Virus record (IMG/VR): IMGVR_UViG_3300028364_000148 | Location: 1 to 23,680 of that record | Source of the DNA: a virus | Direction: 5' to 3' (one strand) | Length of the DNA: 23,680 nucleotides | Made by a program: the position numbers and the translations under genes | Part shown: positions 10,652 through 20,774 of the stretch, in pieces | Position numbering within the stretch: position 1 is the first letter of the stretch | How the letters are laid out: each line of letters opens with the position of its first letter | The notes under the pieces: generated by a model | Database searches by the model: none | The model's input: only the letters and a program-made list of their open reading frames with translations | Told to the model about the DNA's origin: nothing

Positions 10652-11141
10652 TGTTCAGTTCCTCCATTAGATTGTCCACTTGTATTACCAAGTCACTCAG
10701 TGAACCATTGTTATTGACAATATAGTCTGCATGATCAACTGTCAAGCCCATACTTGCAAATGGCTCAGGAGGCAAATGGTGACTTCTATCCACCCAGACG
10801 CACCAATCAAATACCTTTTGTTCTTTCATGGCCGCGAATTCTCTGGGATTGCGTAGACCACCGTAGATGTCATATTCTGAAAATATCTCTCTGCCCAACC
10901 TAGCTGCATCAATTTCACAATATTCACTGATAATATTGAACCATTCTGTTCTATGGTTGTGCCTATCATCAAAACATTGCATGAAGTTTGAATACCCATA
11001 TAATTCACTTAGCACTGGGAATACCACATGTTCAGCACAGAATGCACTCGACGACTGAAATGACATGTGGTACTTGTCAGCTAGAATATCACATACAGTG
11101 TCCTTGCCATGTCTACCATGGCCTATTATTAATAATTTCAT
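10644..11141 (-). CDS. Deoxynucleoside monophosphate kinase-like P-loop protein
   Basis: The 165 residues start M-K-L-L-I-I-G-H-G-R-H-G-K-D-T, a P-loop at 7-15. D-I-Y-G-G-L-R-N-P-R-E-F (about 91-102) is like the substrate-binding L-R-N motif of phage dNMP kinases (T4 gp1 type), and D-Y-I-V-N-N-N-G-S-L-x-x-L resembles their C-terminal portion. Such enzymes phosphorylate dNMPs to feed phage DNA synthesis. At 165 residues it is shorter than T4 gp1 (241 aa), so substrate specificity is uncertain. A clear AAGGAAAA site precedes the ATG. It is the promoter-proximal gene of the long leftward block. Confidence 0.78.
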   Translation of the reverse strand: MKLLIIGHGRHGKDTVCDILADKYHMSFQSSSAFCAEHVVFPVLSELYGYSNFMQCFDDRHNHRTEWFNIISEYCEIDAARLGREIFSEYDIYGGLRNPREFAAMKEQKVFDWCVWVDRSHHLPPEPFASMGLTVDHADYIVNNNGSLSDLVIQVDNLMEELNSV

Positions 11142-11168
11142 ATATTTTCCTTGTTAGTCATGAGTTTA

Positions 11169-11197
11169 TATTTATATTCATATGCAAATGAATTCAA
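11169..11197 (-). promoter_or_regulatory. Promoter for the leftward dNMP kinase block
   Basis: On the minus strand TTGAAT (11192-11197), 17 bases, then TAAATA (11169-11174) fits the window's promoter class. The same bases contain TATAAATA (11169-11176), the T4 late promoter octamer, 28 bases before the ATG. The octamer is expected about three times by chance in this AT-rich window, so the sigma70-like reading is preferred. Confidence 0.45.
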
Positions 11198-11272
11198 GTT
11201 TTATTCACAAGTGTGTTTTGAATATTGGTTGGACATAGACGTTCATTATATAGTATAGTCATCTAGTCTTTT

Positions 11273-11288
11273 GTGGCTTTCAAGCCAC
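11273..11288. repeat. Perfect short hairpin in intergenic region
   Basis: GTGGCT TTCA AGCCAC forms a perfect six-base-pair stem with a four-base loop. No T-run follows on either strand, so it is not a standard intrinsic terminator. Read leftward, it lies between the structured RNA candidate and the dNMP kinase promoter. It may be a processing site or part of a longer RNA. Confidence 0.5.
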
Positions 11289-11414
11289 TTCATATATACT
11301 GCTATCACCTATTACCTTCGCTCTGCTTCAGTAATCGTTCTATTGTATATATTCATTTCATTTAGTATTACGGTTTTAAAGTTTAATTATTATATAATCT
11401 ATTGTACTAATTCT

Positions 11415-12027
11415 TAGGTCTTCATGTAGAGTGTCGAGTCATGAGTCACCCTATAACAGGTGGATGACTCAATGATTATGCGTATCTTCATGTGAGGTGC
11501 GCGTCGTCACTCTATCAGCGGTCTTTCAAGCGTTGTCCTTGGGCTCTGTACCTTACCCTGCCGCTACGATTTTTAAGGATGATTTTCAGGTGACTGTATC
11601 ATCTCATAGGACTCAAATGCTTCTTGGCGAGTGAAAAACCTCCTCTGTATCAATTGTTTTCTTCGATCATCTAGCATGAAGAAAACCACTCACCGTCCAA
11701 TTGAATACCCTTAATAACAAGTGACACAGCTATAGCATCTCTCTGGGATAAACAATCAGGATTCTTTATGCTAGGGAGAAACCAGGCATTACCCTGATCG
11801 GCGTCCTGTTAAGGATAGTCTCCGTAGCCTCACAAACAGATAGTGAGAATTGCCCAGTTGCCACCTTATTGCCGTGGTCTTTGACGATGCATAACTATAA
11901 TCGGCGCATCAACCTTTATATTCTGTTTTTTGATTGAAAGTCGGTGCAAATGTATACCTGCACGTTTCATCGCTGTCTTCGGATACAATCACACATTAGT
12001 GAACAGCGTGGTCCGATATCAAGCTTA
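11415..12027 (-). ncRNA. Candidate large structured RNA, class unknown
   Basis: About 610 bases without a credible reading frame hold at least ten local complementary pairs. Among them: 11436-11441/11465-11470; 11517-11521/11561-11565; 11626-11633/11687-11694 enclosing the nine-pair stem 11656-11664/11678-11686; 11755-11760/11793-11798 enclosing 11768-11771/11786-11789; 11829-11833/11843-11847; 11886-11890/11906-11910; 11944-11948/11959-11963; and a pseudoknot at 11971-11976/12003-12008 with 11979-11983/12012-12016. The outer stem of 11626-11694 has a G-U pair if read leftward but a C-A mismatch if read rightward, which favours the minus strand. A TTGACT/TAGAGT promoter would start the RNA close to 12027. 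Large phage RNAs such as GOLLD or ROOL have this scale; I cannot match one by eye. Confidence 0.55.
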
Positions 12028-12033
12028 ATTATT

Positions 12034-12062
12034 ACTCTACTATATATCTAATTAATAGTCAA
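12034..12062 (-). promoter_or_regulatory. Sigma70-like promoter for the structured RNA candidate
   Basis: On the minus strand TTGACT (12057-12062), a 17-base spacer and TAGAGT (12034-12039) match the promoter class of the leftward genes. The predicted start near 12027 falls just before the pseudoknotted first helices of the RNA candidate. No protein start follows for nearly 900 bases, so the immediate product would be a non-coding RNA or a very long leader of the dNMP kinase gene. Confidence 0.45.
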
Positions 12063-12161
12063 GAAAATAATTCAAACTGTTGAAAAGATCATTATTTTCC
12101 ATGATAACTATCAGTATGAACTCAATACTCAATTGAATAAATTGAACTCATAGGAAAATCA

Positions 12162-14789
12162 ATGAAAATCGCAATAATAGACACCATGGGACTGTCATAT
12201 GACGGCTACACCCTAAAGACACGTGGGCTGGGTGGATCAGAATCAGCAGTAATTCTCATGGCGGATGAGTTATACAAGCTAGGGTTTGAGGTCACAGTCT
12301 TCAATAATTGCCAATCCGGCGAAGACTGTTCACCCGGCATGTACTCTGGGGTTGAATATATAGACAACTCACAGGCAAAAGAACACAATGAGATATATGA
12401 CGTAGTGGTTGTATCAAGGACTGTAATTCCGTTTATTGCTGATTCTCATCCTTTTGTAAAGTTTGCAACCAAACGAATGTTATGGTTGCATGACACGTTT
12501 ATTCAAGGTGACCATTTAATGGAACAGTTGGTTGTGGATGGCACAATTGATCATGTACTTACCCTTTCGGACTGGCACACTTCATATATTTTGAACGCAA
12601 ATCACAAAGGCCCACGTAGAAATTATGAAGTCTTGAAGAAATCCATATTTCAAACGAGGAATGGGGCAGTCAAGTACTCCAATGATGTACGCATTGCAGA
12701 CAAGGACCCCAATCTATTTGTGTATAATTCCAGCGCCACCAAGGGAATGATCCCTCTGGTACACAAAATTTGGCCAGAAATTAAAAAACAGATACCAGAG
12801 GCACGATTATTAATAATCGGAGGGTACTATGAATTTCCCACTGGACCTGATGCACAAGAACAAACAGTTCGTGAACTCATGAACGCAACGGATAATGCCC
12901 AGTCTGGTATTGAATTTACTGGGATCATCTCACAGCAGAAAGTGTCTGAAATTTTAGCCAAGGCCAACATGATGCTGTATCCATGTGCATTTCCAGAAAC
13001 GTTTGGAATATCAAGTCTTGAATCATTATTGTACAATACTCCAATTGTCACGACTAGATTTGGTGCACTGGAAGAAACCGCAGTTGACATGGCATGTTAT
13101 AAAATCAATTATGCAATTGAACCAAATTCTTTATTCCCTGACATTGACCATGATGAACAGGTCGCTAAATTTGTTGAGCAAGTCATGACTGCATATCATA
13201 CCCCATATTTACATCAACAAAAACAAAATTATTGCTCAGTCGTGCATGATATTGCCACATGGGACACCGTTGCACTACAATGGAAACAATTCATATATGA
13301 CATCATGGGAGAATTCTTGTCAAGGTCAGAGTATCGAACAGTATCTAAGATTAACGATAAAGTGGCCCGCGTGTTCGGTAGATGTAATACTATGCCCGCG
13401 TACACAAAATACCACTCATACGTTTCTGAGAAGCCTCTGTTGGTGATAAGCCCCTTCTATAATGCAGCCGATTTCATTCAAAAGAATATCCTGTCAGTTG
13501 CCCAACAGAATTATGAATCTTACCAACATGTATTGATAGACGACAATTCCACTGATGAAGGGTGGATCATCGCCAAAGACACCATCGCCGCTCTGCCCAA
13601 AGAAATACAAAATAAATTCATATTGATTAAAAATAATAAAAGGCAAGGAGCAGTTTACAATCAATTGATCACTGTAAACCACATGGTGTCAAGTGGTAGA
13701 ACGACTGAAGATACTCTGGTGATGTTATTGGATGGGGACGACTGGCTGGTCAACAATAACACATTATTTCATTATTACAATGATCTATGTGATCAGGGGT
13801 ATGAATACACTTATGGCAGTATGTTTAGTCTTGCAGACCAGATCCCATTGATTGCACAAGAATACCCAGACGAGGTTAAGCAGAATAAAACATATAGAGC
13901 ACATCTTTTCAATTGGAAAATACCTTACACTCACTTGAGGACATGTATTGCCAAGTATTTTCAAACCTTGGATCATGTAAAATTTATGACTGAGTCAGGA
14001 GAGTACATGCAGGCGGGAGCAGATAATCCATTGTTCTATGAATTAATCGAACAAGTATCCTCTGACAAAATATACTGCAATAAAGAAATAGTATGCATAT
14101 ACAATGACATCAACCCCATTAATGATTATAAAATAAATGGCCAGGAGCAAAATAAAAACGCAATGACATCATATCATCCCATCACGAAGAAAAAAACCAT
14201 ATTGATAGCAATTCCCACTAATAGATATATTGAGCCTGAAACTATGAAATCAATATATGATCTGGAAATTCCAGATGGATACTCAACCGACTTTCAATTT
14301 TTTCATGGATATCAGATTGACCAAATTAGAAATCTAATTGCCAAATGGGCGTTGGATTATGATTATCTGTTGTCAGTTGATTCTGACATTGTATTACCAA
14401 AGGACTGTCTGACCAAAATGATCTCAGCAGACAAAGACATCATATCCGGATTGTATATACAACGAATACCAAATACTCACACATTGGAGATATATAAGAG
14501 AACTCAGACTGGAGGATCCATTAACATCCACCTTGATGAATTACCCAAGGATACACAGTTTGAAATAGTAGGATGTGGGATGGGATGCTGTCTGATAAAA
14601 TCAAAGGTCTTTCAACTTATAAAGTATCCTCATTATCTATATAAAAGTGCATTGACTTCAGAGAATACCATAAGTGAGGACATATATTTTTGTGAAAAGG
14701 CACTCGAACAAGGATTTAAAATATGGGCTGATAGCTCTATTAGATGTGATCATATCGGATCTACAATGTATAGAGTCAACGATAGATAG
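12162..14789 (+). CDS. Three-domain glycosyltransferase (GT4-like plus two GT2-like)
   Basis: The 875 residues form three glycosyltransferase modules. Residues 1 to about 400 are a GT-B, GT4-like domain: the G-G-S-E-S-A nucleotide-loop start near 24, D-H-V-L-T-L-S-D-W-H, and the late P-E-T-F-G-I-S-S-L-E-S-L donor-binding motif. About 420-640 is a GT-A, GT2-like domain (V-I-S-P-F-Y-N, D-D-N-S-T-D-E-G, L-L-D-G-D-D-W near 523). About 685-875 is a second GT-A domain (I-A-I-P-T-N-R, S-V-D-S-D-I near 738, late S-E-D-I-Y-F-C and H-I-G). Likely roles are modifying phage DNA bases or virion glycoproteins, or making a surface glycan; the sequence does not decide. An AGGA site precedes the ATG. The 3' end overlaps the convergent helicase gene by 14 bases. 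Confidence 0.9.
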   Translation: MKIAIIDTMGLSYDGYTLKTRGLGGSESAVILMADELYKLGFEVTVFNNCQSGEDCSPGMYSGVEYIDNSQAKEHNEIYDVVVVSRTVIPFIADSHPFVKFATKRMLWLHDTFIQGDHLMEQLVVDGTIDHVLTLSDWHTSYILNANHKGPRRNYEVLKKSIFQTRNGAVKYSNDVRIADKDPNLFVYNSSATKGMIPLVHKIWPEIKKQIPEARLLIIGGYYEFPTGPDAQEQTVRELMNATDNAQSGIEFTGIISQQKVSEILAKANMMLYPCAFPETFGISSLESLLYNTPIVTTRFGALEETAVDMACYKINYAIEPNSLFPDIDHDEQVAKFVEQVMTAYHTPYLHQQKQNYCSVVHDIATWDTVALQWKQFIYDIMGEFLSRSEYRTVSKINDKVARVFGRCNTMPAYTKYHSYVSEKPLLVISPFYNAADFIQKNILSVAQQNYESYQHVLIDDNSTDEGWIIAKDTIAALPKEIQNKFILIKNNKRQGAVYNQLITVNHMVSSGRTTEDTLVMLLDGDDWLVNNNTLFHYYNDLCDQGYEYTYGSMFSLADQIPLIAQEYPDEVKQNKTYRAHLFNWKIPYTHLRTCIAKYFQTLDHVKFMTESGEYMQAGADNPLFYELIEQVSSDKIYCNKEIVCIYNDINPINDYKINGQEQNKNAMTSYHPITKKKTILIAIPTNRYIEPETMKSIYDLEIPDGYSTDFQFFHGYQIDQIRNLIAKWALDYDYLLSVDSDIVLPKDCLTKMISADKDIISGLYIQRIPNTHTLEIYKRTQTGGSINIHLDELPKDTQFEIVGCGMGCCLIKSKVFQLIKYPHYLYKSALTSENTISEDIYFCEKALEQGFKIWADSSIRCDHIGSTMYRVNDR

Positions 14790-19790: not shown

Positions 19791-19862
19791 TCGGTGTAGT
19801 TCGCGGTGACGGCCAAGACACCCAACTACTCTATGTTTAACAACTTTAAAAGGAACACAGCC

Positions 19863-20774
19863 ATGTCTATTTATACACCGTATTTCTACGTCATCCAAGA
19901 TTCTCGCAATGGTACATATTATGCCGGAGCAAGATGGAGGAAAGAATGTAACCCATCTGAATTGTTACAGAAGAATGGATATCTAACTTCATCGAAAAAG
20001 GTAAAGGATATTATTACCGAGTCAGGCGAGGGGATATTCATTATACGAAAAATAAAAACATTTACTACTGCGGATGAGGCATATGATTATGAGACTCGTT
20101 TCTTAGAAAAGGTAGATGCAAAAAATAATGAAAAATTCTATAATGGACATAACAATAACAGACCCGCGCCTTATGGTACTCAAGAGTTCGCTGATCTTAT
20201 GATGGCCAAACACGGCGTCACTCATGCAATATACTCGACAGTATCTGACGCAAAAAGAAAAGAAACAAATATAAAAAGATACGGAGTAGACCATTATTCA
20301 AAGACTGACGAATATAAAGTCAAGTACAATAGCACATCTAGGAATAAATATGGGGTAGATCACCCTTTGCAATCTCCCAAAATCAGAGAAAAGGGCAAGA
20401 AAACAAATTTAGAGAGATATGGTGTGGAACACGCCATACAGAACAAGTCTATCCGAGAAAAAGGCAGTAAAACAAATCTTGAAAGAAACGGTAGCGAAAA
20501 GTACAATAATAGAGATTTGGCTAGAGAAACATCTGTTAAAAACTATGGATTCGATCATTATACCAAAACACCAGAAAATAGAGCTACTCTATCAAAACGG
20601 GCTATAGAAAGAGAACAAAATTATAGGAATAGACCAAATGTTATACTTCTAAAAAAGTATATTGAAAAATATGGACGAGAGAATATAGGGTGTGGCAATG
20701 CGTGGTGGAGAAAACCAGATCCTTATCTGAAAACTCTAATTGAAAATGCAGTCCTTAATTATGGTGAATTGTGA
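19863..20774 (+). CDS. Putative GIY-YIG-like homing endonuclease with 23-residue repeats
   Basis: The ATG at 19863 with an AAAGGA site is preferred over an in-frame GTG at 19806. The 303 residues begin with a GIY-YIG-like domain: F-Y-V-I-Q-D-S-R-N-G-T-Y-Y-A-G (8-22), G-Y-L-T-S-S-K (39-45), Y-E77-T-R-F-L (candidate catalytic Glu) and K-F-Y-N94. A tail of repeats follows, with (K/R)-Y-G-V-(D/E)-H cores at about 139, 162, 185, 208 and 228, spaced 23 residues and probably contacting DNA. This is the only rightward gene in the accessory region. Its 3' end abuts a duplicated gene start, the mark of a mobile cassette. The exact nuclease class is inferred. Confidence 0.75.
   Translation: MSIYTPYFYVIQDSRNGTYYAGARWRKECNPSELLQKNGYLTSSKKVKDIITESGEGIFIIRKIKTFTTADEAYDYETRFLEKVDAKNNEKFYNGHNNNRPAPYGTQEFADLMMAKHGVTHAIYSTVSDAKRKETNIKRYGVDHYSKTDEYKVKYNSTSRNKYGVDHPLQSPKIREKGKKTNLERYGVEHAIQNKSIREKGSKTNLERNGSEKYNNRDLARETSVKNYGFDHYTKTPENRATLSKRAIEREQNYRNRPNVILLKKYIEKYGRENIGCGNAWWRKPDPYLKTLIENAVLNYGEL

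Follow-up and report, generated by a model that had tools for sequence, protein, structure and literature searches.

What lies in a gap of about one kilobase between two divergent genes of a phage genome? The gap is found in an IMG/VR virus record (IMGVR_UViG_3300028364_000148), of which a stretch of 23,680 nt, positions 1 to 23,680, was analysed as a whole and is called here the window. A sequence-only reading had noticed a kilobase free of protein genes and proposed a large structured phage RNA, transcribed leftward, that may be a new class. From homology and covariation, we conclude that the minus strand encodes a structured RNA, which spans at least 11928-11417 and comprises two domains that are conserved and covary. 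The existence and identity of this RNA, as judged by sequence comparison, we regard as nearly certain.

The gap and its genes

The gap spans positions 11142-12161 (1,020 nt) and separates two divergent genes (Table 1). In the list of ORFs of at least 50 aa, just one plus-strand ORF falls within it, with its end at 11191, which confirmed the absence of protein genes. A Dda-like helicase and topoisomerase II subunits are encoded near the gap; the large topoisomerase subunit has its nearest counterparts in Vibrio phages (~48% identity). From this likeness and from what is known of these Vibrio phages, we take the contig to be presumably T4-like. Within the 165-aa gene, the kinase likeness is limited to the first ~28 residues, and the remainder hits a phrog that has no assigned function, as well as part of a thymidylate synthase profile. 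Farther on, positions 19806-20774 (plus strand) code for a 322-aa homing-endonuclease-like protein with DUF7487 matches.

ARAGORN found no tRNA and no tmRNA in the window, and a scan of the window with Rfam produced zero families at the gathering cut-off. A BLASTN search of the gap against INPHARED produced merely a 34-base match (E 0.09), present in nine Lak phages.

Could the region be AT-rich filler that folds by chance? The folding energy of 11415-12027 was not clearly lower than that of shuffled sequences on the minus strand (z -0.82, 4 of 20 shuffles as good) or on the plus strand (z -1.37, 2 of 20), as such filler would have it. However, the homology and covariation described below (covariance models R1 and R2, alignments A3, A4 and A5) refute chance folding for the conserved part, though not for 11929-12027 or for the insertion specific to the window. 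We put the chance of this explanation at practically nil.

Structure shared with the nearest relatives

The window was aligned with four relatives (L137, L138, L162 and L304) by plain MAFFT; we refer to this alignment as A5. The near-identical twin L136 was left out, and so were L096, L090 and L156, whose 3' parts lack the block common to the others. The structure written for A5 has 56 pairs in 11 helices, with 91.8% of the cells paired. We observed that 21 of the 56 pairs changed on both sides, compared to 9.1 ± 2.0 in shuffled alignments and 0-5 in slid controls. Compensatory changes were thus present in the conserved part when looked for in homologues. Helix P3 was paired in 52% of the A5 cells, and its strands as chosen by eye pair in all five RNAs.

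Picked by eye, the strands of pseudoknot PK2 in the window are GUCCU/AGGAC; L137 has AUCCC/GGGAU and L304 has GCCCU/AGGGC. Pseudoknot PK1 is counted as 3-4 pairs because its last base also belongs to P7; its changes were one-sided only in A5, and in the type-J relatives described below one of its four pairs had both bases changed. The 5' edge of the conserved part is AAACAGAATATAAAGG, aligned with the relatives, and the 3' edge comes from the R2 match at 11617-11417. When the insertion of ~135 nt is subtracted, the shared RNA has a length of ~375 nt.

Table 1. Features of the gap and of the predicted RNA. Positions are those of the window; "both sides" refers to pairs in which both bases changed.
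Feature	Position	Strand	Remark
Downstream gene, 165 aa	10644..11141	-	N-terminus weakly like deoxynucleoside monophosphate kinase
Divergent upstream gene, 875-aa glycosyltransferase	12162..14789	+	
Conserved part of the structured RNA	11417..11928	-	512 nt including the window-specific insertion; ends are the limits of conservation
5' domain (P1, P3, P4 multiloop)	11775..11910	-	related to RF01718 Polynucleobacter-1
Conserved core ACUAUCCUUAACAGGACG, hairpin P4a	11802..11819	-	common, together with flanks, to 114/120 pattern loci
P4 outer stem	11820-11823/11775-11778	-	both sides: 3/4 pairs in A5
P4b	11793-11799/11780-11786	-	both sides: 4/7 pairs in A5
Window-specific insertion, ~135 nt, holding the 17-pair stem	11625..11759	-	missing in L137, L138, L162, L304 (A5)
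3' domain: helices Ha, P7, P7b, P8, pseudoknots PK1, PK2	11417..11617	-	R2 match
PK2	11608-11612 with 11535-11539	-	both sides: 2/5 pairs in A5, 5/5 in type J
PK1	11591-11594 with 11514-11517	-	pairing possible in the window and all four relatives
Helix Ha	11598-11603/11578-11583	-	both sides: 4/6 pairs in A5, 6/6 in type J
P8 hairpin	11443..11470	-	both sides: 3/9 pairs; 86.7% of cells paired (A5)
In-step direct repeat r, copy 1, ACAUGAA	11487..11493	-	
In-step direct repeat r, copy 2, ACAUGAA	11421..11427	-	
Candidate sigma-70-like promoter TTGACT-17-TAGAGT	12034..12062	-	not above chance

The proposal of a large leftward RNA was therefore backed by homology and covariation, and all significant model matches fell on the minus strand, as proposed. 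The reasons originally cited for it fared less well. The 17-pair stem can be read as described (GGUGAGUG/CACUCGCC plus GUUUUCUUC/GAAGAAAAC, with one G-U pair on the minus strand), but it is part of the insertion and is shared with the near-identical twin only (L001/L136). Similarly, the promoter candidate exists at 12062-12034, but 11050-12250 has seven promoter-like matches against 4.8 ± 2.4 in shuffled sequences. The nested stems noted at 11755-11798 overlap with the covarying P4b (11780-11799). The 5' extension 11929-12027, which holds the promoter candidate and the proposed H-type pseudoknot, was found only in the twin (L001/L136); the pseudoknot candidate, at 11971-12016, sits 5' of the portion common to the other relatives.

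The 5' domain and its relation to Polynucleobacter-1

A cmscan of positions 10900-12500 (1,601 bases) with E-values up to 5 listed only one family, RF01718 (Polynucleobacter-1). The match covers the complete model (1-141 of 141) on the minus strand at 11915-11773, with 24.8 bits and E 0.0065. The score is below the gathering threshold of 37 bits; the alignment is full-length, and in its multiloop P4 outer, P4a and P4b all form. The core ACTATCCTTAACAGGACG is common to the window and to the above-threshold members of RF01718. A profile search with RF01718 of the window's own record at E 0.001 returned no match, and the score of the near-identical twin was not over the cut-off either.

Kinship with GOLLD or ROOL, of which the sequence-only reading had been reminded, was not borne out. 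The RNA of the window is like these two, as described in PMC12286853, in several respects: they have several hundred nucleotides and an elaborate pseudoknotted structure, are borne by phages or prophages and lack an assigned function. GOLLD and ROOL lie near tRNA islands in some cases, as do some relatives of the RNA described here; no tRNA was found in the window. The RNA of the window differs in that the covariance models of GOLLD and ROOL were unmatched, in its conserved sequence and, at 512 nt, in being somewhat smaller than GOLLD; the comparison made here was of sequence. Membership in either family, which a large structured phage RNA with tRNA islands near some relatives might suggest, is disfavoured by the unmatched models, both in the cmscan described above and in 57 scans of loci, where neither family reached its gathering score. 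We find such membership hardly credible.

A search with the core pattern ACTATCCTTAAN{0,2}GGACG returned at least 120 viral stretches. By eye, 114 of the 120 loci also share the flanks of the core, and six (L048, L057, L082, L086, L100 and L113) were discarded as chance matches. We refer to the RNAs of this group as core-type; this label and the labels window-like, J and M were coined in the present analysis. Among nine scanned loci, picked from the core hits and the twin, six reached the RF01718 cut-off, with a maximum of 101.8 bits. In the core-type RNAs, conservation runs at least ~300 nt past the 141-nt Rfam model.

For a mixed alignment of core-type RNAs (A2), RNAalifold returned just 8 pairs, those of P1 and of the core hairpin. 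The yield was poor because MAFFT had misaligned the sub-types. Therefore, we used an alignment of a single sub-type (A3), with 20 of the 40 non-redundant core-type loci and a structure written by hand. Its 29 pairs had 94.8% of the cells paired, compared to 29-42% in slid controls, and 17 of them changed on both sides (101 cells versus 31.7 ± 4.5 in shuffles).

The covariance model R1 was built from the 20 relatives of A3, with no window-like sequence in it. In the window, R1 matched the minus strand at 11823-11775 with 34.8 bits (E 5.7e-7), while the runner-up had 6.2 bits. The match covers the P4 part alone (model positions 89-137 of 153), and a part of the score is built in, since the core-type loci had been gathered by a 16-base pattern also present in the window. 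R1 also matched L138 (39.2 bits), L137, L156, L096 and L090 (20.6 bits).

We conclude from these comparisons that the 5' domain is a divergent relative of Polynucleobacter-1, with the same P1, P3 and P4 multiloop around ACUAUCC UUAACA GGACG. The known family differs in extent: its model ends at 141 nt, whereas the core-type RNAs add at least ~300 nt with helices, two pseudoknots and in-step repeats.

The 3' domain

The block located 3' of the core in the window, GCGGCAGGGTNNGGTACNG, was found in 28 stretches. Among the 25 new loci, 24 were dropped as chance matches and L162 was kept. The core sequence of L162 differs, yet R1 found a 5' domain immediately upstream (25 bits, E 0.0009), the sole R1 match among the 25. 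A second block, GGTNAGGTACAGAGCCC, was found in 78 stretches; 52 of these were anchored as type J, on contigs that reach 354 kb, and the other new loci were dropped as chance.

We aligned 21 of the 22 non-redundant type-J loci (A4), omitting the divergent L343. P8 was omitted from the A4 structure because MAFFT had misaligned its 5' strand. The remaining 25 pairs, including both pseudoknots, had 97.7% of the cells paired, compared to 36-45% in slid controls; 16 of the 25 changed on both sides.

The model R2, built from the type-J loci of A4 with 16 nested pairs and no pseudoknots, matched the window on the minus strand at 11617-11417 over its full length (1-190 of 190), with 59.8 bits and E 4.2e-13; the runner-up had 12.4 bits. 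As in the case of R1, a part of this score is built in, since the J loci were gathered by a 16-base block that the window shares. When 21 further loci were tested, R2 was strong in L138, L137, L162, L304 and L290 (67.8-90.2 bits). In eight type-M loci, five matches had E from 3e-6 to 0.002 and three were weak (E 0.1-0.6). The core-type loci L109 (E 0.003), L031 (0.03) and L012 (0.08) had weak matches located ~165-295 nt downstream of the core. No match up to E 1 was observed in L096, L156, L129 and L130, and the single match in L291 falls away from the RNA of that locus. No Rfam family matches the 3' domain of the window, and we conclude by sequence that this domain is common to further RNAs outside every Rfam family.

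The inverted repeats might instead act as DNA, in an origin, a packaging site or a recombination site. The intergenic position, the integrases close by in bacteria and the flanking direct repeats would agree with such an element. On the other hand, significant matches were on the minus strand only, and we observed invariant G-U pairs: GU in 20 of 20 sequences in helix 6 of A3 and UG in 21 of 21 in P7b of type J. The invariant G-U pairs, together with the pseudoknots, fit a single-stranded RNA. A DNA-level element is therefore very improbable, and we proceed with the RNA.

Branches and limits of the family

At least ~260 viral loci have one or both domains (114 core-type, 95 type M and 52 type J). 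Type M came from a pattern that included the window's copy of the repeat r; the pattern was found in at least 120 stretches, and the 95 loci were counted by an added AGAGCC-like block. Three further loci (L302, L303 and L305) were dropped as chance. No family reached the gathering score in an Rfam scan of 18 loci, i.e. 17 of the r-pattern set and L162.

Both domains, in order and on the same strand, were found in the window, L137, L138, L162 and L304; in L290, the R1 match was weak (E 0.04). R1 found no 5' domain in 14 type-J and 8 type-M loci tested, and a weak R1 match in L351 (E 0.35) falls away from the RNA of that locus. Types J and M therefore connect to the window through the 3' domain only, as the core-type RNAs do through the 5' domain, and the linkage of the branches rests on the window-like RNAs with both domains. 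The RNAs whose two ends could be judged have sizes of ~350-500 nt.

We also considered that the RNA might have a fixed position beside the kinase-like gene. This was rejected: in the fetched sequence of L002-L008, which carry relatives of the 165-aa gene, there was no R1 match and no recognisable comparable gap. Judging by these sequences, the RNA of the window is not bound to its position beside this gene.

BLASTN searches against INPHARED with the RNAs of L012 (core-type), L197 (type M), L137 (window-like) and L146 (Polynucleobacter) returned no credible match; one of the searches gave a 32-base match with E 0.7. The search of plasmids with the L146 RNA had no credible match either.

A direct repeat that changes in step

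The P8 hairpin is bordered by CTC-r and TCT-r, where r is a short direct repeat; in the window, r is ACATGAA, present twice, on either side of P8. Among 176 core- or J-anchored RNAs, we found a candidate r pair in 142 (34 were without one). The two copies were identical in 131 of the 142 RNAs, compared to 8.8% when partners were shuffled, and 16 variants of r were observed. This set includes related loci and some duplicates. The candidate pairs were picked from inside the individual RNAs, in the same way for the shuffle.

Pairing of r with a complement in the same RNA gained no clear support, the totals being without a clear excess. The observed numbers of complements versus the shuffled ones were 48/55.6, 41/47.5 and 78/68.8 in core RNAs, and 22/20.8, 11/17.1 and 28/23.8 in J RNAs; single position bins reached up to 14 versus 7.8. 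The lack of a clear excess suggests that the r copies probably contact an outside partner or form a symmetric non-Watson-Crick motif.

Neighboring genes and bacterial carriers

Neighboring ORFs (at least 80 aa) were determined mechanically for the 114 core-type loci; the fetched flanks were partial, and all neighbor counts apply to the fetched stretches. The upstream ORF was on the same strand as the RNA in all 107 loci possessing one. The next downstream ORF was on the opposite strand in 42 loci, shared the strand of the RNA in 55 and was absent in 17.

These counts bear on the question of whether the RNA is a cis-regulatory leader, i.e. a riboswitch-like 5' UTR of the downstream gene. The table of Weinberg et al. 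(2010; PMC2864571) lists Polynucleobacter-1 in Burkholderiales from fresh water or estuary and marks it 'y' as RNA, 'y' as cis-regulatory and '?' as a switch, and a same-strand ORF comes next in the window as well as in 55 of 97 core-type loci. However, the opposite orientation in 42 of the 97 means that the RNA is not generally a leader. Same-strand ORFs were 292 to 1507 nt away, in the window the conserved RNA stops ~275 nt ahead of the start codon of the kinase-like gene, and the adjacent genes vary by lineage. Thus the provisional cis-regulatory label of Polynucleobacter-1 does not fit the wider sample, and we give a leader little chance. The persistence of the RNA beside differing neighbors argues for a stand-alone RNA, and it is as such that we consider it further.

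In phages, the upstream neighbor is often a SegE-like GIY-YIG protein, with homologues in 102 of the 128 loci L001-L128 and in 93 of the 119 loci L183-L301. In L012 and L109, the SegE-like gene ends immediately ahead of the RNA, on the same strand; the one in L012 (7533-7976) is a stand-alone SegE-like GIY-YIG gene (PF19835). PHROGs labels this family as NAD synthetase. The other flanking genes of L012 (SbcC-like, baseplate hub, tape measure) fit a T4-like phage.

The core pattern was also searched in a collection of species genomes, where it occurred in seven stretches. Three were real, two in Polynucleobacter and one in a Methylococcaceae MAG; L131, L132, L134 and L135 were dropped as chance. 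Of 121 genomes sampled in the genus of the first Polynucleobacter, 13 had RF01718 (12 over the cut-off), as did 4 of 300 from its order (3 over the cut-off) and 2 of 151 from the order of the MAG; these samples overlap, and the seed genomes are among them. A copy from the Polynucleobacter genus sample (L156) has an RF01718 score below the cut-off (25.8 bits), lies beside a DUF6641 gene and has a 5' end similar to that of the window branch.

Among the 20 Burkholderiales copies found, 16 were examined. All 16 chromosomal copies (L129:4056-4493 and 15 others) adjoin a DUF6641 gene, and 11 of the 16 have a similar integrase in the fetched stretch. Possibly, the integrase, DUF6641 and the RNA form a small island in Burkholderiales. 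Neither DUF6641 nor a similar integrase was found at the three Methylococcales copies, and 353 phage sources searched had no match to DUF6641.

Does the RNA then act with a protein of the adjacent gene, as an RNP or a two-component module with the SegE-like protein in phages and DUF6641 in bacterial islands? The frequencies given above for both proteins are in line with this. The SegE-like protein, however, was missing from 73 loci (L306-L378) and from the window-like loci, DUF6641 was missing from the phage sources and the Methylococcales copies, and the neighbor varied with lineage. A module of this kind is improbable, and the RNA acting on its own is the reading that we retain.

tRNA and tmRNA genes near the relatives

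ARAGORN detected nearby tRNAs in 9 of 54 J loci, 2 of 7 window-like loci, 1 of 112 core loci, 0 of 95 M loci and 0 of 46 chance-match loci. It detected tmRNA in five of the 54 J loci (L310, L316, L335, L340 and L339) and in none of the other groups, so that the 95 type-M loci and 111 of the 112 core loci had neither tRNA nor tmRNA. In Rfam scans, a permuted or beta-tmRNA was found in 3 of 15 loci (L314, L290 and L341) and then in 2 of 15 (L309 and L339).

The tmRNAs share a contig stretch with a type-J or related RNA; they are located at L310:2967-3366 (-), L316:13250-13649 (+), L340:4127-4526 (+), L314:2864-3310 (+), L309:5802-6139 (-), L339:2656-3154 (-) and L290:3769-4155 (-), and have tags such as ATAITNEAYALAA. 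The loci L310, L316, L335 and L340 share one tag and are probably one lineage. In L310, L316 and L340, the tmRNA is ~300 nt from the 3' domain of the RNA. The permuted tmRNA (RF04321) is a separate RNA that adjoins some type-J relatives and is unmatched in the window. Islands of 7-18 tRNAs were seen in the fetched flanks of L061, L137, L138, L309, L320 and L348.

Large phages often carry tRNAs. As a link to translation, the proximity of tRNA and tmRNA genes is suggestive only.

Discussion

Overall, the best explanation of the gap, with a probability of roughly 0.8, is a two-domain, stand-alone trans-acting RNA with external contacts through r. It would be made during infection and would be no gene's leader; such stand-alone action we hold to be very probable. 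The RNA probably folds to a compact pseudoknotted particle. The two identical r sites, one on each side of P8, would form paired contacts with an outside partner, which could be another RNA or a dimeric protein. This mechanism of contact is tentative, and somewhat less likely to be right than wrong. As partner we would guess at the translation machinery, given that tRNA islands or a phage tmRNA lie beside some relatives; the link to translation itself is rather unlikely. GOLLD, too, is reported near tRNA islands, and ribosomes are reported bound to it in pull-downs, according to PMC12286853.

In a broader reading, which we put forward with reserve and would not favour at even odds, the RNA of the window represents one branch of a superfamily that has gone unrecognised, made up of pseudoknotted RNAs that act in trans via two identical, lineage-specific r sites, in a bivalent manner and possibly on translation. 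Its carriers would be integrase-bearing islands of Polynucleobacter and phages known only from environmental contigs; of these phages the two that were checked, those of the window and of L012, look T4-like. In the superfamily reading, the in-step evolution of the r copies would reflect the need of each to fit one shared partner outside the RNA.

We did not find the extended RNA in print in the open-access literature that we searched. By our comparisons, a 141-nt Rfam motif of unknown function covers just one end of a larger pseudoknotted RNA, which is found in at least ~260 viral loci (with one or both domains) and in bacterial mobile islands, with some branches outside Rfam. The RNA thereby ranks alongside GOLLD and ROOL among the large phage RNAs that still lack an assigned function, and adds to them named bacterial carriers, the Polynucleobacter genomes with chromosomal copies, as well as a precise testable feature, the direct repeat changing in step. 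With this RNA described, many empty gaps of phage genomes would become annotatable. If the proposed mechanism is true, phages would have a bivalent RNA, possibly working on translation alongside phage tmRNA or tRNAs.
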